From assembly GCA_964036195.1 (NCBI GenBank), contig OZ038453.1, positions 16,715,206 to 16,779,205 of the forward strand: a stretch of DNA of 64,000 nt. The letters run 5' to 3'. The notes below the pieces were generated by a model. That model saw only the letters and a list, made by a program, of their open reading frames with translations. It had not been told where the DNA came from and ran no database searches. Shown piece after piece: positions 22,701-63,099 of this stretch; within the stretch, counting starts at the first letter, position 1, and the number at the start of each line of letters is the position of its first letter. The stretch is from Sphaerolaimus hirsutus (taxonomy: Eukaryota > Nematoda > Chromadorea > Monhysterida > Sphaerolaimidae). Both the position numbers and the translations under genes were made by a program.

Positions 22701-25700
22701 AGCGCGCAAAATTTTTCAGAAACATCGAAAAATTTATAGGAAAAGTTGAATTTTCCGGGACGTTTTAGGTCAGGCTGCAGCCCCCCCGCCCCCCCCCCCC
22801 CCCTGGATACGTCCTTGTAGATAGGTATAAATATATCCCTATATGGTAGACGTTAGCGCCAACGCCAATACTGCCATGGCGCTGGCGCCTACAACTGGCG
22901 CCAGTGCCATGGCTCTATTCCTTTACTATAGGCCAAATTTTAGGGGGGGGGCGCCGCCCCCCCCCCGTTCGCCGGGCTCCGTGTACAATCCGCGCCCCCC
23001 CCCGGCTCAAAAATCCTGCGTACGTCCCTGCCTAGTAGGGGGTACTATTCAAGCTTAGATTATTCAAAGCATTACCAACAAACTACGGTAGTGTTGTCCC
23101 CGTCGCAGGCAGTGGATGTGGAGGCGCTGTCCAAGGAGGCCGACGGGCGCGTGGAGACAGCGGCCAACGAGAAGAATGTGCTGTCGCAAATGGCCCACAT
23201 GTCGCTCGACGAGTCTCGTTAGTTCGTTTCCTGTGTCGCCGTGCTACCTTTGAACAAGGTGATCATGTAGCTATTTGCGTGTGCAAATCACTCTAGGCGC
23301 CAATACCAGACCCTGTGTAGTGTAAAGTAAATTGTCAAATGTCATGTCAAATGTCTTGCAAAAAGTCAATTGTCGTGACAAATGTAAAGAATCAAAGTCG
23401 TGCAAACTTCAATTATAAAGTATTTTTTGTGTTCATCGACATTTTACATGTAAAAGAAAAGTCAAACTCAGTTTTTTTTTTAAATTTTCACTTCTCACTT
23501 CAAAATTCGTTTCCAATTCTCCACTCGCATAATTAGCACCCTCCCCCAGAAATCGCGATGGACGTGGACGGGCTGGTGGAGGGCGTCACCTGCAGCGCGG
23601 TGGACATGTTCGAGTCGAGCTACGCCAGCGCCAAGGTGCGCTCCGTGCTGCACACCGTTCGCAGGGTGGTCGCCATTGGGGAGAAGTGGTCTGTGGTTTT
23701 TTTGGGTGTGTTTAAGCAGCCCACGCATGCTTATTGACATCGCAAATTTGCGTCAACTCGATGTCAACTAAATGATACAAAAAAATTCTTTAAACATCAC
23801 ACTTAACAGAAACAATGAAAATTAAGTGTCATGATGTAAAATTAACTATGCTCCATCAGATAGGAACATTGAAATCACATAGTCACTAAAATTGAATTCA
23901 CATTAATTCAGTTGACAAAGTTGACATCCAGCGTGTGTGGTGCCAAAGATGTTGAAAATTCTCGTTGTATCGCCTTAATATGTTAATGTTCAATCCATGC
24001 TCTCTCAAAACGGCTTTTTCCAAGATAATAGTTCAGTATTTATGTATTTGTGGTCTTTTCGCGGGGGTTTGCGATCGTCATTGTTGGGCAAACAGTGAAA
24101 TTTCACCTATAAAAAAAACAATATTTCATTCAAAAATAATTTTAGTATTATTTTTTTTATTAACCCACCCAAGCTTTCTCCAATCAAACAACCCCCTACC
24201 CCTACCCCTCAGCGTGGTCGTTTCGCAATGGACCAAATTCTTGGACATCATCCAAGAGCACCTCAAAAAGGCGTCCGTGAAAATCATGCGTATCGACGGG
24301 CAGGTGCACGTGCGAGATCGACAGCCAATTGTGAACGCTTTTAATCGGGACGATAATAGGGGGTGCGCCCTACTTCTCAGTTTGACCGCGGGGGGTGTGG
24401 GCTTGAATTTGATTGGAGGAAATCATCTCATTTTGGTGGATTTGCATTGGTTCGTTTGGGGGAAGTGGGCGGCGTTTTGGGGTTGATTTAGGTGGTTTAG
24501 TCGACGCTCACTGCTCGTTTGCAGTGATGTTTTTTAGATTTGCGTATGTTCTATGAGCTTTTTGAAAAACCTCTCCCATTTGAAAAATCACCCAAAATCG
24601 TCGACGCAGAACTTCATATTTACAAATTTAAGAAATCACCAAAAATACGTGACATGACGTGAAACGTGACATGTTTCAAATTTGACAATTTCCAAATTTT
24701 GTGCTAATTTTAACTATCGCCTTTTTCCACAATGGGGCCCCCACACGCTAGTTGACATCAACACCAAATGTCAACTGGTGCCGATCCCGATTCAAAGCTT
24801 GCTGACTAGCCGACGATCTTTGAAGCTTTGAATTGTGAAGGGAACCAGTTGACATTTGGTGTCGATGTCAACTAGCGTGTGCGGGGCCATTATCACTGCT
24901 TTCATAAATATGATCTCGTGAGTTTTTCTGCAGGAATCCAGCATTGGAAAGTCAGGCGGCCGACCGCATTTATCGCATGGGCCAAACGAGGAACACTTTT
25001 GTACACAAGTGCGTCACATTTTCCCACGTCTATTTGGTTTGGGGTCAAAACGGGACCAATATTTCGGGCCGGGACCGGCACCGAAATTTTTTCATCGGGA
25101 CCGCGACCGGGACTGGTATTTTTATCGAAACCGGTACCTTCTTAGTCCCGGTACATTAAAATACCGGGACCGTGGTCCCGTTTGAACCCTAATTTAGTTG
25201 TCGAAATCTTATAATTTCTTTTACTAGTCTCGTCATTTCAGACTCGTGTGCGAGGGCACAGTGGAGAAGCGCATTTTGCAAGTGCAGGAACAAAAGAAGC
25301 AGCTGGCGAAAAGTGTCCTCGAAGGGTTCGTTTTTTTATTTTTTGTTGCATTTTTTAGTGTTTTTTTTTGTGTGGGGTTCAAACGGAGCCGTGTTTTCTA
25401 AACCGGAACCAGAAATTTGATTTGCCACGATCTTTGCACTGCGATTAGCATTTAAAAAAATCTCTGGGAGATTTATATTCAAAAAGAACGAAAATATAAG
25501 ATTTAATGAGATTTATAATTTTTTCACGATTTTCTAAAGAGATTTTATTTTATTTTCTTTTTTAGAGATTTTTTAAAATATCAGAAAATCTTTCAAATTA
25601 TGATATTTATATATTTTTCCAGGGGTTTTTTTGTGAGAGATTTTATCTATTTTTATTGAGAGATTTTCTGAGATTAGGTATATTTATTTATATATTCTAA

Positions 25701-46485: not shown

Positions 46486-46919
46486 TTTGAACCTATTGGG
46501 AAGAGGGTGTGCGCTACACTCGTTCCGAGTAAAGAAAATGGGGGGAATATGGTAGGAAAAGTCCGGAAAGTGTCCGTATTTGTGAAACTTATGTCCCCAA
46601 AGTGGTACTTATGTTATTATGACGTCATAGTTGTTGACGCAAGATGGGTTACGGTAGCGACGCGAGAATTATGTTAACGCGAGAATATAGGGGGGTTGAC
46701 GCAAAAGAATGGGACGCAAGATTATAGCGTGAGTATTATTGCGTCGCCGTCGTATCCAAATCTTATGGTAGTGTTGGGGGGGGGAGGTGTTTTTCGTCGC
46801 TATCTACCGTAACCTAATTTTGCGTCATGGTTAAGTGGTTGAAAATAGTGAATTTTGTGTTTGGGGTGGGGACTTTTGGAACGAGTGTAGCGCACACCTT
46901 ATTTCCTCATAGGTTCAAA
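46486..46919. mobile_element. Element with 40-bp inverted ends
   Basis: TTTGAACCTATTGGGAAGAG plus GGTGTGCGCTACACTCGTTC at the left pairs with the inverse at 46877-46919. The interior has GACGCAAGA/TTGCGTCG words and the CCAAATCTTATGG motif. There is no ORF of note. Confidence 0.85.
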
Positions 46920-47198
46920 GGCCTTGATAGGTATTTTTTTGTGGCTTTTTTTATGGAGTGATAGAAGAGGCATTTTTTATTGAAATGTTGATAGGAAAAA
47001 AAATACAGGCCAGACGATGGCATTACATGCATTTTTTCACAGTTTTTTTCTGAAAATCACTAGACACATTCTCCAAATATTTGGACTTTGTCTGGGTGGA
47101 TTTTGAAACTGCAAATTTCTGCACGGTACATTTGAATGCGGCCTCATGCATTCTGCGTGGGGTGGGCGGAGCGTATTTGAATTTTGAAATACGGTATA

Positions 47199-48665
47199 TT
47201 ATAAAGGTAGTACGTTATGCATGAGCCCCGACCTTTTTTGAATTTTGTCATGCCTATGGTGTTCGACAAGAGGGGTGGTGATTTTTCTTTTTTGGGCAGA
47301 ATTGCCTTTTTCTACAAGTTTGTCGACATGGCGCCAATTAAATTGCACAAAGGGAAGCAATTCCCTCGGTATTTTGAGGGGCTCATGCGAAAAACACCCT
47401 GTGCAAATCAGATATGGGACATGTAGCATGGGCCGATTTTTCTTGGTGCCTTCACAATACTTGCACCTGGAAAATGGGGGGGTGAAAATGTGTTTTTATA
47501 ATGGAAATGATTCATAAATAAGTGTGATTATCAACTGACGTGTGGATAATTTCACCATTTTCCGTAATCACACACTGATTTTTGAGTGTGAAGTTCATGA
47601 AATTGTCCATGGACCGCCTATTTTCTGAATTTTCTGCCAATTCGTTGCGGTCCAAGATTTTCAAAACTTTGCAAGACCAGCCGACAATATTGTCGGGCAT
47701 GTCTCCTGCACATGCAAGGTTTACACGTTTTTTGTTTTGCGGCGGGTGTAACCTTGGTGATGTTAAAAAGAGCAAACTTGTAAGATATTCTGCATCCATA
47801 TAGTGTCGACACCTTTGTGCAAAATCAATGACATTTTCTCTCGATTTTGCAGGGTCGTCTCTATATACAGGGTGTGTGAATGCAAAATCCATATTTTCCG
47901 GTATTTTTATTCTAAATTTGGGCATGGTTTTGCCATCTCTAAGGGGACTGGGGCGGCGGCGTCCCAGCAAATATAAATCTGTTGAGTGAATGCATGGGAA
48001 AGAAAATGAAAGTGTAAAACATGGGGGGCAGTGAACAATATAAACTAACTATCTTGATCGTGCAATAATTTTTTGACACAGGTGGAAATTAGTGTGTCAA
48101 TTTGTGATGGTGTGAGTGTCACTCCTAGGTGTTCCATGAATCTTTTTGGAACATAAATATTCACTTCGGTCTGTTGCACATCGTCTGCAACCACCGTTTT
48201 GAAAATCTGAAAATTCCCCCCACATACCGCAGATGACTTAACAAGGACGACCGATGTGATGAAGAACGAACAACAAACCTCTATCTGGACAGCCATACCA
48301 TTGTGTTCCAGCTGAATTTTGCCCGTGTCGGGCAGGATGGTGGATTGAATTGTGGCCTGGGGGTGGTCCCAGACCCTGTAAAATGTAGAATAATGTGTAA
48401 AATACATGTAAAATGCCACGTAAAATGTCAGTTTTTCATGAAGTTTCCCATGTATTATCAGTAAACATCTTGACAAATGGCACTTTACATGGCATTTTAC
48501 ATGTATTTTACACATTATTATACATTTTACAGGGTTTGGGACTGTGACCAGGCTATATACAGCTGTTTTGAGAGGTAGTTCAAGGAAAGAGAGAGCTTGT
48601 GAATTCTCATCTTTGTATAGTTGAGATTTGGATTTTTTGTTTATATCCAATTTCAGTGATGTCAT
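47199..48665 (-). CDS. Uncharacterised four-exon protein
   Basis: Exons (minus strand): 48665-48549, 48356-48050, 47978-47556, 47398-47199; about 348 residues, all phases consistent. I do not recognise the family. The first exon starts MTSLKLDINKKSKSQLYKDE. Exon 2 has ILPDTGKIQLEHNGMAVQIE and a VNIYVPKRFMEHLGV segment; exon 3 has RIKIPENMDFAFTHPVYRDD. Mixed hydrophobic and charged periodicity suggests a folded globular protein, with no signal peptide or membrane helix. Alternatives: exon 3 can read through to a stop at 47512 (HTSVDNHTYL ending), making the last exon optional. A 72-base in-frame stretch with GT and AG ends at about 48254-48183 could be an extra intron. Intron 1 is nearly all MITE. 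An upstream exon before 48665 is possible. Confidence 0.6.
48357..48548. repeat. MITE forming a whole intron
   Basis: On the minus strand the intron begins GTCACAGTCCCAAACCCTG and ends CAGGGTCTGGGACCACCCCCAG. The arms are inverted for about 60 bases, and only about six bases at each side lie outside the element. It belongs to the CAGTCCCAG family seen at 13569-13858 and 45375-45560. Splice phase is 0 on both sides. Confidence 0.8.
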
Positions 48666-50673
48666 TTTGAGATGGGACACCCTGGTTGTATATAGAAAGT
48701 GTCCATAGAAGTGAAAATGCAACTGAATGGATCATGTATATTTACCGGCAATCTTCTGTTTGTTTTTACGAAAAAATGCAATATGGCGGACGTTTTTGCC
48801 GGAGGGGGGGGGGGGGGGGTAGGGGGGAAGGGGTAGTCGCTTTGCAATGATGTCAAAGACAACGTTTTCCATTAGATTATATTAGGGAGGGGGAGGTGCA
48901 AAAAAGTCCGCGCTGCGCTTGCCGCTGTCATTTTTGTCTGTCATGGAAAAAATCGAAAAATCGCTGCGGGCGGCGGGGTGGCGCGGGGCGGCGAGCACAC
49001 TTTGTACGAATTATAATTAGGTTTGTTTTTGTGGGCTGTATGTATACAGCCCAATCAGGACCCATATTCATTTTGCCCTGTTTCATGGGCAAAACTGTTT
49101 TGTAAGGTTTTGTAAGGATATGATGCGACTCTCAAAAACAAGGTGCTTACATATATGCCCATAATTATGAAAAACATTGACTGGCATGATATCTTGTAAA
49201 AGTGTTTGCAAAAAAATGGGCAGATTAAAATGGGTTCTCTTTTTAAATGGATAGGTTTGTGTGACCTTGTGTAAAATGGGAACGCTCTGTTTTGGCGGCA
49301 GTGGACAAATTACACGACTTAATAATGTGACAAGTCCGCAGACCCACCCTCCCCCCCGCAAAAATAACTAACGTTGTCGATTAAATCCGATTAAGTAACA
49401 TAAGGTATGATATGGCGGCGTTGTCGCGATCAAGTTTTGATACAGTGTGTTCCTATATACATATGCTGATTTTAGGATGATCGAGTTGGGTTTTGCATAT
49501 CGTAATCGCTCAACGATCCCATGGGATTTTATTCGATCTCTGTACAGAAATGTTTACATATGACAACGTTCATGCTATTTTATCTGCACTATTTGAAAGG
49601 TACTGTAATAATTGCAAATTTCGAAGTGGTTTACATAAGTTTTACATGAATGTTGTCATATGTAAACATTTCTGTACAGAGATCGAATAAAATCCCATGG
49701 GATCGTTGAACGATTATGGTATGTACAATATTCAAAGGTTGATGTTTTGATCTTGGTGTTGGCAAATGAAGATCGCATGAGCGTTTTTATGAGCAATTTG
49801 CTTAATTTTTAAACCATCTATTGTTTACAAATGATATAAATTCGGATAAAAAATAAGAGTAAATCATAAATAAATAAATAAATGCTGGATAAAACACACG
49901 TGAACGTTTCATAAAATGCACACAAAAACGGTGTTGATAAAACGCAATGACAAATAAAACAAAACCAGCAAGTGTAAACATTGAATATATTTGATCGATG
50001 TTCTACCATGAAATGTTTTTGTTGATTTGACATATTTAATGGAAGTGTGGAAATGGTGGCATATGTCGTTTTTCCTCGAACTACCCCCAGGTTTTTTTTC
50101 AGAGTGAAGGTTTTGAGAGAAAACGCTTGAAAATGTAATTGCTATTATCCATTTCCCGGACTACAAATTCACTGCGTCCTGTTTTGAGGTGGGTATTTCG
50201 TGGAAACATCATAGGCATATTTATTCGAGCAAATATATTCTCAAAAGTGACGTCAAACTGATTGAATGGTCTGTATGCATAATTGGAAAAGATGACATAT
50301 GCTAAGTTTTGCACTTTTTGGGGGGGGAATGAAAATAAAGCTTCTAAAATACAAAGTTAAAGGGGCTTTTAAAAAAAGTTCTTTTAAAGTTTTTAAATAT
50401 AATTTGTTGTTTTTAACATCCCTCATTAACGTGGGCATTGTAGAAAATATTAGGTATTTCAGAATTGACAATAATGCCTCACCCTGTGGAGCATCGTTTT
50501 TGGGGGGGGTGACTTTTCACACATTGCTTTTTGTTTTAAAATAATAACCGGTTTTTTGGTATTCCCCTCCCCCAAAAAGGTCTAAAAAAATGGGGTAAAC
50601 AACTGAATCAATGGATATTTAAGGCGGTGTAGATTTGGCCAATCGGCATAGTTTGACTTTCGGCTCGCGGTGT
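48666..50673. other. Intergenic interval, no supported gene
   Basis: It contains a G-run near 48804, a C/G-rich ORF at 48896-49105 without family signature, the hairpin at 49497-49722, and a CTCGAACTACCC...GGGTATTTCGTGG inverted repeat (50070-50205). ORFs are AT-rich shadows. Confidence 0.5.
49497..49722. repeat. Hairpin element with arms of about 85 bp
   Basis: CGATCCCATGGGATTTTATT and ATCTCTGTACAGAAATGTTT in the left arm are repeated inverted in the right arm with almost no change. The loop is about 55 bases. It resembles a young MITE. Confidence 0.9.
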
Positions 50674-53600
50674 TCAGTCATCTCTGGAGTAGGAGGAATA
50701 AAAATCACCATCACTATAGCGTGCAATATAAGAACTTGTGGCGCTATTATTTTCTGACACACCGCTAGACGTTGGGCCATCTTCTTGCACTTCTTCTAAC
50801 TGCTCGTTCATGTGTTCGGCATGGGTGCGGTTCATTTTTTCAATGGCAGCTCTCATATCGTTGCGATTTATTTCTGCACTGGCATAGTAGGTTTCAGATC
50901 TCTGAGTGGGTTTTTGCGAATTAATATGTTTTCAACTATCGTATTTCCTCGAAATACCCCCCCCTCAAAACAGGGCACAGTGATTTTGTGGTCCGGGAAA
51001 TGCAAAACAGACGTTCAAAACACTTACTGCGTTACATTAGAACATCGTTTATACCATTTACATCCTTATATACGGCTGTAAAAGCTTAAAAATGGTGGTT
51101 ATTGTTGCATTTTTCACATTTTTCTCTCAAAATGCTCACTCTGAAACAATAAACCCCCGGGGGGTATTTTGAGGAAATACGGTATCCATCTGGTTTTTAT
51201 CCCCCCTTATCTAGCTAGATGTTTGTTTACATCGTAAAAAATTGTTTCGTTTGTTTGTGTCTAATTACATATATTTACGCCACCCCCCAACCCTTTCACC
51301 CCCAACCCCCTTCACTCTATGCGAAAAATAGCACGATGCAAACCAACCGTGATGTTTGTGGTTGGCACTCTAAACGTTGTGTCAAAAGAATCGGCGCCGT
51401 TTTCTTGTGTCACTGTTGTAGGGGTCGTGTTTGCACTGGGATAGTAGATTTCAGATCTCTGAGTGGGTTTTTGCGAATTAATACATATGTTTAAGATTAT
51501 ACATCCCTATGTATCCAACTATCTATCCAGCTGTTATCCCCCTATCTAGCTAGATGGTTATTTACATTGTAAAAAATTTGTTTTGTTTGTTGTTGTTTAA
51601 TTACATATATGTACCCCACCCCATCTCCTTTCACCCCCCAACCCCCTTCACCATATACGAAAAAAATACCACGATGCAAACCAACTGTCCTGTTTGTGGT
51701 TGGCACTCTAAACCTTGTGTCAAAAGAATCGCCGCCGGTTTCTTGTGTCGCTGTTGTAGGGGTCGTATTTTGCCTATGTTGTTTTACATGTTTTCCACGG
51801 TAAAGCTGAATACAAATTTCAGTCTGAAAAAACGCATGTGTGATCGCACATTGCTGTATTAAACAACTTACAACTGCACTCTCTCTATATCATTCCTCAT
51901 GTTTGTGTGTCCTCTAACAAAGATTCGATATCCAAAAAACATGCCAACAAAGAGTATCAGTGTGGTGCAGCCAAACAGTACGATAAAGCTCATCATGATC
52001 ATTTGAGTCTGAAAGTGGGTGGATTTTTTGTTTGGATAATGTGTGAAATAAACCCCCTCTCCCCCCTTTCATACATAATGTTTTTTATTGTTGTCCCTGA
52101 ACCCCCCCCCCCCCCAAAAAAAAAAGTGCTATTGTTTTGCATATCATCAAGATTCAAAACACATTCATGAAATAAAATAATGTTTTTAAGGTATTACTTT
52201 GTGAAGTTTTGTCAATTTGTCATCCAATTCTAGCATAAATGTCTCAAATGTGATCCTTCTCTCCATGCTGGTTTTAGCAGTTGTGTTTTCATTCATATCA
52301 AAATTGGCTGTTTCATGCTGGTGTAGCTTTTTGGCTGGCCTGACAATCGATGGCATTGTGGTTGAATCGATTGTGCCCAATGTGGTTGTTCTGATGAAAT
52401 ACCCTTCAATGTAATCCAGCTTTGCTTTTATTTCATTTAGATTGCTCTCCCATTGTGTGTCATTGGCACATTCCAGCTTCAATTTGAAAGCAACTTTTTA
52501 TAGTAGGCAAAATTTGAAAGCAAAATTTGTTTAAAAGAGCATAAAATAGATATACCTCAGACTTTGACATTGATGTATTTAGTTCAAAAAAGCCATTGCA
52601 TAGAGCTGTAAACATGCATGCCACAGTGTTGTTAATCTGCTTAATGTTTCCATTCATTGATGTCTGAAAGGCTTTCTGTTTATATTTGACTTTGTAAAAA
52701 TGTAAAAATAAAAATAACAATCACCATAGTATTTTGAATGTTCCTATGATTCTGGGACAGATGTGATGTCACAGGGTGAATGTGCTTTTCAATTGATCTC
52801 TCTATTTTTCCCAAAAATGTCTGCAGATGGTCATTCACTCTTCCAAGGCTCATGTCACTGTCCTATAATATAGAGTGTATTGGTATATGGATGTGTTTTA
52901 ATTTATCACAATATGTTTTAATATGCAAACCAATGTTGTGGCTGTTCCTTGAACTTCATCAGTACTTTTATCATTGGCCAGCCTTTGCAGGATTTGTGTA
53001 GTGTGATTTTGAAGCATATTCTCAATTTTGCTCAGAATGCTGTTTTCAATGCTAGATGTTTTGTCCACATTTTTGCTTTCAGTGCTAGAAATTTTGTTGG
53101 CCCCAATTTTGCTTTCAATGCTAGAAGTTTTAGCCTCAATTGTACTTTCAATGGTAGAAATTTTGTCCACAAAACTGCTTTCAATGCTAGAAACTGCACT
53201 CGCAATTTTGCTTTCAATGGTAGAAATTTTGTCCACAAAATTGCTTTCAATACTAGAAAATTTGTCCACAATTTTGTTTTCAATGCTAGAAACTTTGCCC
53301 ACAATTTTGCTTTCAATGTTAGAAATTTTGCCCACAGTTTTGCTTTCAATGGTAGAAATTTTGCCCACAATTTGGCTTTCAAGGTTAGAAATTTTGCTCA
53401 CAAATTGGCTTTCAAGGTTAGAAATTTTGCTCGCAAGATTGCTTTCAATGGTAGAAATTTTGTCCATAATTTTGCTTTCAATGTTAGAAATTTTGTCCAC
53501 AAATTGGCTTTCAAGGTTAGAAATTTTGCTCGCAAAATTGCTTTCAATATTAGAAATTTTTTCAATGCTAGATTGTACAGTTATCATTTTTTTGTCCAAG

Positions 53601-56749: not shown

Positions 56750-59700
56750 ATTTTCCACGGGCGCATCCTCATACAACCTGGATGATAGCATTGACAGCAG
56801 GGAGAAGCTCTTGTTTGAGCTTGTAATACTCAAAGAGAATCAAACATCCCAGGAACTGTTGGAGGTTTTCAAGGAGGCATTCAAGGAGTTGCACTTGCTG
56901 TTTGGTCCCTCAAAAGTGGAGCAGTGTGGCAGCAAGAAAAGTGAGCTTCAGAAAGAAAAAAACAAGGTTGGTTTTTCTTGTCTCATGGTATGATGAAATG
57001 AAGTCCTGGGGATCTTACACTTTAAAGTCCCTGGGGATCTTATACTTTACATGTTTAATGTTTTTTTCTGAATAAAAAAATACCCCCCTGGGGTCTTATT
57101 TGTGAATATGTGGTGTATAACAATGTACTGTTGTAGAAAACATTGCAGACACCTGTCATCATCGATTCTGCTGGATCCACCAGCACCAAACCTGTCAGCA
57201 GCACCCCTAACACCCAACACGCACCGGCGCGAACGTATGCTGCTGTTGTTGCAGCTAATCACACTGCTAAAGCATCTACAGGTGGACCATTGTCCACCTT
57301 CTGGAAGCCAGGTGGGTTTAATATGGCACTTTTGCAGTGTTTTGGCCTGTGTGAATGTTTGATGTTTTGGTGACACAAATTCGTTTGTCCCCTTTTTTTG
57401 CACAGGCCCGACAGCTGTCAAGCCGGTGGTCAAAGCTGGGATCTACACCCCCCCCTGTGTTGACGAGCAGCCACCAAGAAGGCCAGAGCTCCTGGCACAG
57501 ACCGAGCTGGAGAAAGTGAACCAGGTGGACGGGTCTGCTGCCCATTGTGGTCGCGGACGCGGACGTGGACGGGGGCGTGTGTCAACGGTGGACATACCCA
57601 TAGCAAGGTTGGTGGGGGTGACTTCACAAATAAGACCCCCAGGGGGTTATTTTTACTCAGCAAACTCCACATACCACAACATGCAGGGTGCTTGTTGCTG
57701 ACGTTCAACGCGTACCGCCATCGCCAGCAATCGAAAGGGTCAGGGATTTCAGACCTGTTCCCAATGTTCTGCCACCCACGACACGGTCAAGTAGCACTGG
57801 TGGACAGAAGCCAGGGTTGGTCATTTTTGTGAATGTTTGCTAATGTTGCTATTGAATGTCACCTTTTTTGTGGATTTGCCATGATCTGCCAGCGAATGCC
57901 AATATGTTTTTTATCTCTTATCCCCCCCTTTCACACAGACACAACCAAGGTGGCCATATCACTACCTACAACCAACAGCCAATCCTTACAAGTGGGACAC
58001 CTGTGCCCGGAATCTGCAGCTGTGCTGGCCAGAACAGCACCACCGAATGCCACCAGGTTGAATGTGGAGCAAAATCTGGGCAGTCAGACAGAAGTGGTGA
58101 CCACGTCAGTGACAGTAATTACAGAGATAGTGGATCGACACGTGGACAATCAGCAACTCAGACCACTCAGATTCAGGTGCCCTCCTGGCAGCAGACCGCC
58201 TCCTTCCAGCAGGCCACAATCACCAGACAAGGACACAATGGTCAGAACAAAAAGGACACAAAGACAGGACACCGATCCGGAACGGCTGAGGAGATGGCAA
58301 GATGGACAGCCCCCACCCCCCCAGGTTTGTGGTTTTTTCATGTTTTTATTGTGATTTGTGTATGTGTGTGTGTGAAACAGTCATTTTTTCATTGTCCATT
58401 CCCATTCCCCCCCCCCCCACACACAGCAACGATTGAGGGAGACCAGTTCAACAGTTGTGGTGACAACATCAAGGCCAAATCTCACAAGAGAAAGACTAGT
58501 GCGGGTTCAAGAGAGAGTGCTGGAAGAAGAAAGGAGGGCAGATGTAGTGGAGCAGGTTTGTTTTTCCATCACTTTTTCTATACATGCTCAACACTGAATC
58601 TACCAAGACATTTTAGTGACTGTGCTTTCATCTTGCAGCAGAGGAACACACCGGTCAGCAGCGACGACACATCGGTCGACAGCAACCCAGCTACCCAGAT
58701 GGACACAGCAACAGCCACCCAGATGGACACAGCAACAGCAGACAGCCACCAGAAACAGAAGGACAGTGGCTGCACCTTGGTTTGTTGACGTTTTTGTTGA
58801 CATTCTTGTTTTGTTGTGAAGATGGTTGTGAAGATGGAAATGTGCTATGTTTTTGTACTTTGATTCAAACCCCCCCACACCCCCTGTGCAGATGTCATCA
58901 ACGACCCCAGCTGTAGTCCCACAGGCCCAGGTAGAAACCCCAATGGACACAACGTCCCAGGAGACAGAAGGTCAAGCTGCACAGATGGAGGTGGACTCAA
59001 AGACAAAGGTATGTTGATAAGAGGGTTGTTTTTATGTTTGTGTGGTACCGTTTTACATACCATGGGATCATACATATCACATATGGTGCTTTTCACATCT
59101 TAAGTAGGTCATACATATCACATGTCGTCGTACTTTTGGCGTTTTAGGGGGGCACACATATCACATATTAAACGATGACTGTAAAATAATCTCACCTCCC
59201 ACCCCCTTATAGGCACCCATGGAGGTGGAAAAGCAGCTCCCAGTAGAGGCCATTCCACTACCACCAGGCACTCCCCAACAAAGGCCGATAGTGGCAGACT
59301 GGCCAGCCAGCACATCAAAGGCAGTGGTGCCAGTGGCACCGACTCCACCACAGGCACCGACTGTGCCAGAGGCACCGGCTGCACCAGAGGCACCGGCTGC
59401 ACCAGAGGCACCGGGTGCACCAGAGGCACCGGCTGTACCAGAGGCACCGGCTGCACCACAGACACCACAGGCACCGGGTGTACCAGAGGGACCACAGAGA
59501 CCACAGCCGCCGGGTGCACCACAGAAACCACGGCCACCACAGAAACCACGGGTACCACGGGTAGGACGGGCACAGCGGGCACCACAGACACCAGATGGAC
59601 CGATAGCAAAGAAAAGGAGGTCAGAACTGGAGGTGGTGATTGTGGGGTCTCCACCACCAAAGTGTCTACCAGGAATGACGGTTATGCAAACATGGAGAGT

Positions 59701-60783
59701 GATGGGGTTGAACGCAATGACCCAAGCATACGGCAGCACCAGCACCAGCACCAGTGGCCTGTTGAATGCCCCAAAAATGGAGCAGAGACAACTGAAAAGG
59801 GTCACAAATGCAGACAACGCAGTGATATGCGTCAGGAAAAGGCTGTTCAGCTCACCGCAGAAGGGGGGTCAGCCCGTGGCAAAGCATATGAAGAAGCATC
59901 AGTGGCGTGGCAAATGGGGCTGGACATCCAGCGACAGCAGCTCAAGCAGCAAAAGCAACAGTTCGCCACAGTCGCAGACGGCCAGAAAGAAGCGCAGGTG
60001 CAAGAAGTGCAAAGCAACAGCCAGCAGCACCAAGAGCAGTCGCAACAGCTCCCCATCACCACAAACGCGCTTGCTGAAGCATGTCAACTCAAAGCTGGAA
60101 CTAAGGCAGTTGGAAAAAAAGGCAGCAAACATGGTGATGGACAAGGAACAGACAGGGTCAGCACAGTGCTCTCCAGCGAAAGGTCAGGACCAGCAGGTGA
60201 CAGTGGCCACGTCGTCAAGAAGCGCAGAACAACAGTTGGATCTGGACAGCCTGCCAATGGAGATGGAGAAGATCAGGGAGCTGCTACAGGTGAACGAGAC
60301 GGTCCAGTTGGAGATGTGTCCACGCATGCGACAGATAGCACGAGAGCACCTCCAGCTACCTCCTCTAAAGAAGCTGGAGGAGATGCTGGTGGAAGAGGCA
60401 AAGCAAATGCCGGACATGGATACAACGGTGCCAGTTCCCAACAAGTGTCCAGGGGGCGATCTAGACAGTGTGATAACGTCAATAGAGGAAGATGTAATCT
60501 GGCAGCTGCTGGGTCTGAACCAGCTCACAGACGATTTGCCAGTTATGACCAGTCCACTGCGTCAGGTGGGTTTGATGGTGGGGTTTGTGTTTGAAGTGGG
60601 GTGAAGTGGGGTGAAGTGGGGGGTGTGATATCACAAACAATATTTTTGTCAATGCATGTCAGAAACCAAATAGTCAATGTAAAATCAATGTTAAGCTGTC
60701 ATGGTCAATTCTTTTTGTTCACTTTGCAGGTGGCACGGCGCAAGCTGGAAATGGTTGGCGCAGTGCCAGCTGCCGACCAGTGA
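56750..60783 (+). CDS. Same locus, short isoform (frame A)
   Basis: It uses the donor after 57799 instead of 57815, so exons 57939-58324, 58427-58555, 58639-58779, 58892-59008 and 59213-60565 are read one frame over, ending at TGA 60781-60783 in the next exon (60730-60783). About 960 codons. Frame A reads RLVRVQERVLEEERRADVVE, a Pro/Ala repeat (PEAPAAPEAPGAPEAP), a basic Ser-rich block with KKRRCKKCK, and a strongly helical C-terminal segment (LEEMLVEEAKQMPDMD; EEDVIWQLLGLNQL), ending VARRKLEMVGAVPAADQ. Hydrophobic periodicity makes it more protein-like here than frame B. Alternatively, one missing base at about 60779 would fuse frame A to the long C-terminal ORF and make frame B unnecessary. 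Confidence 0.55.
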
Positions 60784-62811
60784 GGGAAAGCAATCAAGAA
60801 TACCACGACCGTATGTCCACTTTTATAAGATGGTGCTGTGAGAAGGGATATATGGCAACAATGCCTCCAATGTCGATGGCTCAAGCTGCCCATCTTGTGG
60901 CATTGGGTGGTGGACAGTCAATTCCACCTACTCCAGTATTAGTGCCACACCCGCTCATGTCAATGGGACCACCAAGGTTCCCAATGCCATCACCACCAAG
61001 GTTGCCAATGGCACGACCAACTTTGCCAGTGACACCACCAATGTTGCCAAGTTGCCAGTTGCCACACCTGCCAGATCCACATGTGCCCGTTGATCCATCT
61101 GCCCACTCTTTGCCAGAAACCACCACCACCAGCACGAGAAACTATGCCACGATGACCAGCAGCAGCAGCAGGTCCAGTAGCTGTGCTGCCACCACTAGAG
61201 CAGAACCTGTGACTGAACCTGGGGCTGGCTGCTCAACTGCACCTACACAAGGAATGGCAGCCCTTCTGGAGCCTCTGTCAGGGGTGCCAGATGTGCCAAG
61301 GGATCCAACGGGCAGACCGATGTACGAGCTGATCACTCCACCACCCCATGGCAGAGCTGAGTTGGGGGTTTCCGTTTCCTCCATCCCTGAAACAGCACAA
61401 GAGGGGGTGGAAAGGCTGAGGGTAGAGCCAGGGCAAGAGCCCACCGTTCAACAACAAATAGCGCAGCGCATAAACATAATCGAAAATGTGAACCTTGCTA
61501 GGGCCAAGGAGGTTGTGCGCGAGTGTGTGCTCGAAGCAGACAGACAAATGCTGGCCACAGCCTTGGCTTTGACAGCCTATGGCGGCATGCTGCGCGCCAT
61601 TGACATTGAGCGGAATGCTTTGCCGTTCGATGCACTGTTCCGGGAGTATGAGGGTGTGGATCCAGAGCCACAAAAGTACATTCTGATGTTTGAACTAAAC
61701 GGCAACCTCGTGCGCACTCAAACGAGACACACAACCGACCCCCAGGTTGTTTCCACCGCAATGTGCACCCACTTGAACAGTGGCTTCCCAGTTAGACTAC
61801 AGCGCATCATGTCAAGGGGCAGAAACAGAATACAATCCATGAGCGAAATCCATGTTGTGTTCAGGCAAAATGTGGATTTGAATGGGGCTGACATGTCGGG
61901 CACATTTTTGACAAAGGACTACCTAGGGCGCGAGGGGCATGGGCCATCGGCCTTAATGTACACAACGCTATATGCACGCGCGCGCAGGGGTTTTGGCAAC
62001 CCCCCAAAACCCTTGGACACATTGCCAACGGTCCAATGGGTGCCCGATCCAAAGACTGGACAAATGCGCATCAAAGTGGATGGCTATGTTGGTTATCTAT
62101 ATATGCATACAATAAATATGGGTGATGGGTTTACTCACTACTCAAATTCATAACCCCCCTTGTAGATCCCCCGGAACAAGTCCGTGACCGAGTTGCAGTA
62201 CGCCTTCATGGAAAAGTTGCAGGCGGATGGCACAGTGGCACCGCCGTCGAACGTGGACGAAATGGTGATGGCCAAACTGCTGAAGTGGAGAAAGGTGGAA
62301 AAGTTGATTGCCCGCGTGCTCTGCATGACGGTCAACCCCACCCAGGTGCCGCAGGTGCCCCTGAATCCTGCCTATCGCAGGGGTGCCAACTCGGGCAGTC
62401 CAAACACAAAGGGCTATGTACCCCCCCCATGCGAACAGGGCAGTAGCAGTGGGACATATGTAGAGGGGGGGGAAAGACCAAAGGCCACAAATGGCTATGA
62501 ATTTTGGAAAAATTGCAGGTACTTTTGTGATGGGGTTTTATGGAAAACAACGTTTAATTGTTTGGAGACAAAAAAACTTTTGTGGGGTTCGATGAAAAAA
62601 CTTTCAAAATTGTGGGATCTGACAAAAAAATTCCAAATTCATAATCTGAAATCTGTTTTTGCCTATTTTGGAAACAATACTTTTTGCTTGAAGGTTCTGC
62701 AACACCACCGAGGCCACACACCACTTGTTCCTACGCTGCGCGCACTGCGAGTGCGAGGGTCACCTGACTGTATCCCCAGAGACCTGCATGGAGCTGTGCA
62801 GGACCATGTGA
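56750..62811 (+). CDS. Uncharacterised large protein, long isoform (frame B), 5' end open
   Basis: Exons: 56750-56966, 57137-57311, 57406-57607, 57687-57815, 57939-58324, 58427-58555, 58639-58779, 58892-59008, 59213-60565, 60730-62087, 62166-62518, 62694-62811; about 1560 codons, phase-consistent throughout. No family recognised. In order: an acidic helical start (LLFELVILKENQTSQELLEV), GRGRGRGRGR (RGG-like), a long polar Gln/Thr/Gly-rich middle read in frame B, a Pro/Met-rich stretch (MPPMSMAQ...MGPPRFPMPSPPR), then a folded-looking region (ARAKEVVRECVLEADRQML; KYILMFELNGNL). The end is CRFC...CAHCEC with C-x2-C-x11-C-x2-C spacing, probably zinc-binding. RGG and KKRR motifs suggest a nuclear or RNA-bound protein (inference). 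The 62087 donor (GTTGGT) was preferred over read-through to a stop at 62153. The true start codon was not found. Confidence 0.6.
57796..57821 (+). promoter_or_regulatory. Tandem alternative donor sites, 16 bp apart
   Basis: ACTG|GTGGAC (exon end 57799) and CAGG|GTTGGT (exon end 57815) precede the same acceptor at 57938. The 16-base difference is not a multiple of three, so donor choice decides which of two open frames is read in the next five exons. GTTGGT matches donors used at 56967 and 57608 in this gene. Confidence 0.6.
59340..59590 (+). repeat. 18-bp coding repeat (PEAPAA units)
   Basis: Units of CCAGAGGCACCGGCTGCA encode Pro-Glu-Ala-Pro-Ala-Ala in frame A and Thr-Arg-Gly-Thr-Gly-Cys in frame B. 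The near absence of T opens other frames by composition here, including minus-strand ORFs up to about 218 codons, which are not genes. Confidence 0.85.
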
Positions 62812-63099
62812 AATGTACCATAGAATATGAGCTTATTTGATGTACAGCTATATACCAAAATTGTGCACAGCTATGTGACAAGGTATCTGTAAAAAATGTG
62901 TATCTGTAAAAAAATGTCCCCCCTTGGGTTATCTGTACAAAAAGTGTGTCAACTGATTTATCTGTAAATATGAAAGTCAAGTTCACTTTTAACATGTGGC
63001 ACATGTAACTTATCGCTACACTTATTCTTTCAATGTGCCTTGACAAAACAGCATACCTCATGAGATGGTGTTTTGAGTGAGGTATGTTTCAAAGAATGT

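Follow-up and report, generated by a model that had tools for sequence, protein, structure and literature searches.

A nested pair of overlapping genes on one strand is very probably encoded by a multicopy mobile element in the genome of the nematode Sphaerolaimus hirsutus, an ORF designated A lying in the +1 frame within a longer ORF, U-B-D, on one spliced mRNA. The pair was analysed in a stretch of 64,000 nucleotides (the window) and in other copies of the element, and since more than 2,000 coding bases are readable as two proteins in many diverged copies, a real gene pair is favoured over a chance reading. The spliced mRNA would carry U-B-D and run into further 3′ exons. ORF A would begin at an ATG in exon U4 (57764), span five complete exons and end at a TGA at 60783, 743 codons in all. 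Its translation would start from this internal ATG, either on that mRNA or on a shorter one, by leaky scanning, by reinitiation or from an internal promoter.

Table 1. Features of the overlapping gene pair in the window copy.
Feature	Position	Strand	Remarks
Exon U1, long U-B-D frame	56750..56966	+	51-63% aa identical in distant copies; exon with the most variation, pi 0.17
Exon U2	57137..57311	+	in other close copies acceptor apparently 12 nt further on, in frame (by eye)
Exon U3	57406..57607	+	U frame
Exon U4	57687..57815	+	U frame; from 57764 frame A too; donor cagg/GTTGGT
ATG of nested ORF A	57764..57766	+	kept in 21/21 close copies; matching ATG in 4 distant copies (by eye)
Alternative donor proposed by the sequence-only reading (exon end)	57799	+	actg/GTGGAC; GT in 21/21 close copies
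Exon E1, dual-coding A and B	57939..58324	+	
Exon E2, dual-coding A and B	58427..58555	+	
Exon E3, dual-coding A and B	58639..58779	+	copies differ by 24 nt in length, in frame
Exon E4, dual-coding A and B	58892..59008	+	
Exon E5, dual-coding, 451 codons	59213..60565	+	A and B open in 12/12 sequences tested
Pro/Ala (frame A) tandem repeat within E5	59330..59596	+	excluded from polymorphism counts
Exon D, carries on frame B	60730..62087	+	47-52% aa identity to five distant copies; 3′ end set by eye (scripts took 62098)
TGA ending nested ORF A (743 codons)	60781..60783	+	TGA in 21/21 close copies
Next U-B-D exon after D	62166..62460	+	acceptor by eye; 36-44% aa identity to distant copies
Cys/His-rich 3′ coding stretch	62692..62851	+	75-76% DNA identity to distant copies; zinc-like look by eye

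In the window copy the long U-B-D ORF comprises about 1,400 codons and continues into further 3′ exons. No Met codon is present in the 240 codons of U, and the U-B-D frame has its first Met at 58294. The region of the window from 49.4 to 56.7 kb was searched against one other copy for an exon preceding U1, and only a dispersed repeat was found. ORF A starts at its own ATG in U4, stays open through the donor at 57815 and ends at the TGA, frame B going on into exon D. These exon coordinates, the canonical splice dinucleotides and the frames are as described in an earlier sequence-only reading of the window.

The same reading had reported that five consecutive exons (57939-60565) are open in two frames and that the third frame is full of stops. 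Both statements hold: A and B each contain no stop in 708 codons, and 40 stops were counted in the third frame (C). The frame-A codons ending in T number 69 and not about 60 as first given; none is followed by AA, AG or GA, as claimed, against 19.6 expected by independence. The upstream control was also reproduced, U1-U3 in the shifted frame showing 9 stops in 197 codons (10.6 expected), and D in the shifted frame showed 14 in 437 (17.2 expected). Off-frame stops in the single-coding flanks occur near the expected rate in three of four comparisons, the exception being U1-U3 at offset 1 (3 seen, 5.9 expected, P=0.04).

The codon-shuffling simulation that had been proposed was carried out. When protein A was kept and its synonyms were shuffled, 17.2 +/- 3.2 B stops were obtained, with a lowest count of 7 in 5000 shuffles, against none observed. 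When protein B was kept, 5.5 A stops were expected and none observed, the share of shuffles with no A stop being 0.0002 in one run and 0.001 in another. The caution that the Pro/Ala repeat is open by composition alone does not account for the result: without the repeat, 15.5 B stops are still expected (lowest of 3000 shuffles: 5) and, with B kept, 5.5 A stops, none of 3000 shuffles being stop-free. The joint openness of A and B is confirmed to exceed chance.

The repeated nature of the locus had been missed. When the frame-A protein was compared with its own genome, 164 match pieces were obtained, and those listed merge into 97 loci; the locus is thus a repeated mobile-element gene and not a single host gene. 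A 501-base D probe gave 23 matches at 95-100% identity and a further 17 at 65-69%. A gene for a 322-aa protein in the right flank, the next conserved gene of the element, was found at 99 loci, and at 91 of the 97 A loci it is no more than 9 kb from A. The close-copy set (n=21) comprised the window copy and 20 of the other 22 close copies, the two on C15 being left out, one of which shows stops in A. A and B are both open in 18 of the 21; of the other three, L011 and L021 have a shift in E1, and L024 carries a single stop in A. Core-exon length differences in the remaining copies are multiples of three. Across the set U-B-D is open in 16 copies, A in 18 and both in 15, and the splice-site differences at U1, U2 and E3 look in-frame by eye. 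The start and stop of A are conserved among close copies. A base missing near 60779, which had been raised as an error that might join frame A to the long ORF, is excluded, as the TGA at 60781-60783 is present in all 21. Left of about 57684 the close copies diverge, and of the 20, L016 alone has the 5′ side in common, at about 98% as far as 54303; this divergence suggests that the copies may be mosaic.

Five distant copies (L029-L033) were fetched, of which L032 showed only D in its 8 kb. In the other four, frame A is 49-51% identical to the window, and A and B are open in the E5-equivalent exon, with 12.6-13.2 B stops expected when A is kept and none seen. By eye, each of these four has a frame-A ATG in the position of 57764, closely preceded by a frame-A stop, and the U4-equivalent exon enters B via a CAGG/GT-type donor in L029, L031 and L033. 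Inspection by eye also showed that in L030 a U stop occurs where U4 ends and an E1 acceptor cannot be seen, and that L031 has no TGA at the aligned place.

A deep set was assembled from seven 2-kb stretches, one per identity class, in which A is about 22-42% identical. In all seven, A and B are open over 435-580 codons; 14.9-21.6 B stops and 2.9-5.9 A stops were expected, and none was seen of either. For E5 of the window the expectation with A kept is 11.0 B stops, again with none seen. Over the 12 sequences (window E5, four distant, seven deep) 11-22 B stops were thus expected in each and 2.5-5.9 A stops when B was kept, against none of either and a frame C near expectation; the limits of E5 were set here by ORFs, so that the zeros arise by construction and what matters is that joint openness of such length is unexpected.

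The deep copies also bear on the connection of B with D. In L037, L039, L040, L041 and L042 the E5-D intron is absent, B runs unbroken into D, and A stops 13-28 codons past a conserved LRQ; in L036 and L038 E5 and D are apparently separated by an intron. B is in phase with D and, in these five deep lineages, contiguous with it. Met 60813 of D is not conserved in the deep copies that lack the intron, an argument for D being reached through B. Five of the seven deep copies lack intron 60566-60729 at the corresponding position, a case of intron gain or loss within a dual-coding gene.

Selection was assessed from polymorphism among the close copies, with the Pro/Ala repeat left out. Variable columns at A codon positions 1, 2 and 3 number 40, 29 and 74 (pi 0.012, 0.007 and 0.025), as compared with 14, 16 and 47 at the D codon positions; pi in the introns is 0.058. 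For the counts of changes, 19 copies were used, L011, L021 and the repeat being dropped (n=127). Changes silent in A and altering B made up 71 of the 127 against 31.8 expected, a 2.2-fold excess, and those altering A and silent in B made up 16 against 34.1 expected. The third-position variation and the excess of A-silent changes indicate that A is under normal protein-level purifying selection, and A carries strong protein-level constraint.

Changes making a B stop were absent (5.5 expected), and one made an A stop (5.1 expected). At A third positions, C-to-T variants were found at 0 of 65 sites where the T would create a B stop and at 12 of 78 harmless sites (P=0.0005), these per-site counts not being fully independent because the close copies are related. 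The single-coding control D gave 4 of 30 in stop contexts and 12 of 81 in others (P=1), and the core differed from D within stop contexts (P=0.009); the C-only comparisons split by following base were not significant individually. Selection keeps B free of stops. The proposal that selection maintains both frames is thus borne out in other copies of the gene.

The nature of frame B differs from that of A. B is unusual in composition (8% LIVMF, 14% Gly, 13% Thr), and its codon usage correlates with that of the flanks at r 0.31, against 0.72 for A and 0.19 for C. Four-fold sites of A, compared between the window and distant copies, show no extra conservation over those of D (0.43-0.55 vs 0.49-0.52). 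Similarity of B was evaluated against a null in which A was kept and B stops were forbidden. Over 36 pairs the mean z was 2.7 (BLOSUM), with many pairs near zero and many deep pairs without excess B identity. Eight sequences taken together gave z 11.4, and two sets of five mutually distant sequences gave 5.8 and 5.5 with global and 3.5 and 4.6 with local shuffles. The strongest conserved blocks are near 60014-60083 and 60413-60505. These values point to weak protein-level constraint on B. B would be a G/T/S-rich, probably disordered linker that serves mainly, by staying open, to join U and D in a single protein, and a few blocks of it would be weakly conserved beyond stop avoidance. The coding constraint on A would be the older or the dominant one, B being the overprinted frame.

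Other explanations of the two open frames were weighed against this evidence. That A alone is coding, B being open through composition, repeats or codon bias, would fit the flank-like codon usage and amino-acid make-up of A and the gathering of variation at its third positions. It is nevertheless very improbable, given the absence of B stops in each of 12 sequences where 11-22 were expected while frame C is near expectation, the 0 of 65 stop-making variants against 12 of 78 others, and the openness of B that remains unexpected without the Pro/Ala repeat. The converse, in which U-B-D alone is coding and A is open by chance, draws on B being in phase with D and, at the better-looking donor, with U, and on a chance of an open A given B in one copy of 0.0002-0.03. 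A is, however, the better conserved frame (49-51% identity), variation falls at its third positions with the 2.2-fold excess of A-silent changes, and it is open in 7/7 deep copies; an A open by chance is exceedingly improbable.

Two further explanations concern splicing. In the sequence-only reading the frames were switched by a 16-bp donor toggle, alternative splicing from 57799 yielding a U-A protein and that from 57815 yielding U-B-D. U indeed runs into A stop-free through 57799 and the GT there is kept in every close copy, which says little as U4 varies little anyway (8 of 129 columns variable). By eye the site looks weaker than the other donors of the gene and has no counterpart in L029, L030, L031 and L033, yet A is open and conserved in these copies, where A's own conserved ATG is preceded by frame-A stops. 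The toggle is therefore not upheld as the switch and is considered unlikely. A tandem donor four nucleotides further on (60569) could likewise join A to D, A and B then being alternative middles of a U-x-D protein: by eye, CAG/GTGG/GTTTGA could shift by 4 nt and bring A into phase with D. Four of the 21 close copies (L019, L022, L027, L028) have lost the second GT, A's own stop is conserved, and the intronless deep copies stop A 13-28 codons later, so that this arrangement has very little likelihood. The preferred reading remains that of ORF A translated from its own ATG within U-B-D.

How this ATG would be reached was considered from the leader. The ATG of A lies in a context, TCCCAATGT, that looks poor. 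Two ATGs precede 57764, one of which (57237, 62 codons) is kept in 21/21 copies, and ATGs in U are not depleted (3 seen, 3.4 expected). Simple leaky scanning through an ATG-depleted leader was thus not supported, and the poor context, the kept ATG and the undepleted ATGs make an internal promoter or reinitiation no less likely than leaky scanning.

The flanks of the window copy were scanned for genes of the element. The right flank carries minus-strand ORFs, one with a match to the retroviral-type integrase core (rve; E 8e-7, 29.7 bits, below the Pfam cut-off of 32.6). Capsid, ATPase and protease gave no match in the ORFs scanned, nor did OTU or Ulp1 in the 7 flank ORFs scanned, the integrase gene being unassembled. 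Homologue searches in Pfam and PHROGs returned only the weak rve match and sub-threshold noise. No homologue was found in a large protein set for a 313-aa D piece or the 322-aa flank protein, and viral contigs searched with the D piece gave no match. PDB searches with profiles A1 and A2 gave none for A1 and two at E 0.8-0.92 for A2; Rfam and tRNA scans gave none. Single-sequence structure predictions were uninformative (pLDDT 41 for the D piece, 50 for a C-terminal piece of A).

Further overlapping ORF pairs were seen on the minus strand of the right flank. One consists of L034:3456-4679 and L034:3704-4303 (408 and 200 codons; share of stop-free shuffles 0.003-0.017), and another, beside the integrase match, of L034:5348-6652 and L034:5377-5973 (435 and 199 codons; share at most 0.002). 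Elsewhere in the window, 46486-49443 shares 85% identity with the sequence on the left side of another copy (L035:11-2941), and this stretch may belong to the element as its left part. A 33-bp tandem repeat in 16 copies with long ORFs on both strands occupies 53024-53560, and an ORF at 23956-24486 with a helicase C-terminal domain match (E 3e-10) is probably an exon of a host helicase gene.

Among known systems, ALEX is shorter than ORF A and lies within one exon. ORF A has 743 codons, involves seven exons in part or whole and belongs to a multicopy mobile element. Shared with the mammalian frame-shifted nested ORFs including GNAS XLas/ALEX (PMC2329644) are a nested same-strand shifted ORF on a spliced eukaryotic mRNA and constraint on both frames. 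Very long +1 nested ORFs, with one frame using the codons of the genome and the other overprinted, are shared with the tymovirus p69/replicase overlap, listed at 626 aa in a table of PMC8227390; +1 overlaps of more than 2,000 nt appear in PMC8903798 for Kennedya yellow mosaic virus and Providence virus. These are RNA viruses without introns, whereas the overlap in the element is split by introns and present in chromosomal copies, and the frame of atypical composition (B) is here the inner part of the longer ORF and not the nested ORF.

The element resembles Polintons/Mavericks in being large and repeated, and it may share their retroviral-type integrase, to judge from the sub-threshold rve match of the window copy's right flank. 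Unlike them, it gave no capsid, ATPase or protease match in the ORFs scanned, and a PF03175 (DNA_pol_B_2) match was found within 60 kb of only 1 of the 97 A loci among the listed matches, with 70 of 391 candidates scored in six frames without intron joining. ORFs of about 1,500 codons for this Polinton-type polymerase were listed at about 70 loci, nearly all away from the element. Ginger DNA transposons have an integrase-type transposase, of which the element may carry a counterpart, and like it they have introns in the coding sequence, their intron-containing genes including some GC-AG introns in the account of PMC2836005, whose table gives 2.6-7.1 kb for Ginger1. The present element would be larger than Ginger1, judging from the distance of up to 9 kb between A and the 322-aa gene at most loci; in the window copy the integrase match is about 24 kb of sequence away. 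A literature search on overlapping frames in Polintons or transposons returned no such case in the titles and abstracts listed, which leaves absence unproven. It is an evenly balanced possibility that the copies constitute an uncharacterised class of large intron-bearing elements, present in about 100 copies of many lineages, with a 700-plus-codon nested pair that predates divergence to 22-35% identity and with overprinting elsewhere in the element too.

Most long dual-coding genes known so far belong to compact viruses, and their study is hampered by the small number of independent sequences. Here, one genome gives tens of copies at every divergence from 100% to about 22% identity, and the introns, the single-coding flanks U and D and the third frame serve as internal controls. 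Direct tests thus become possible of the order in which the two frames arose, of the extent to which the sequence of the second frame matters and of the way stop avoidance shapes synonymous sites. The pair also carries a warning for annotation: the nested A is the better conserved protein, and a gene finder choosing the longest ORF would report U-B-D only. If the copies do constitute an old class of elements as outlined, they would be among the longest and, for genome-resident eukaryotic elements, the best replicated natural experiments on two proteins sharing one sequence.
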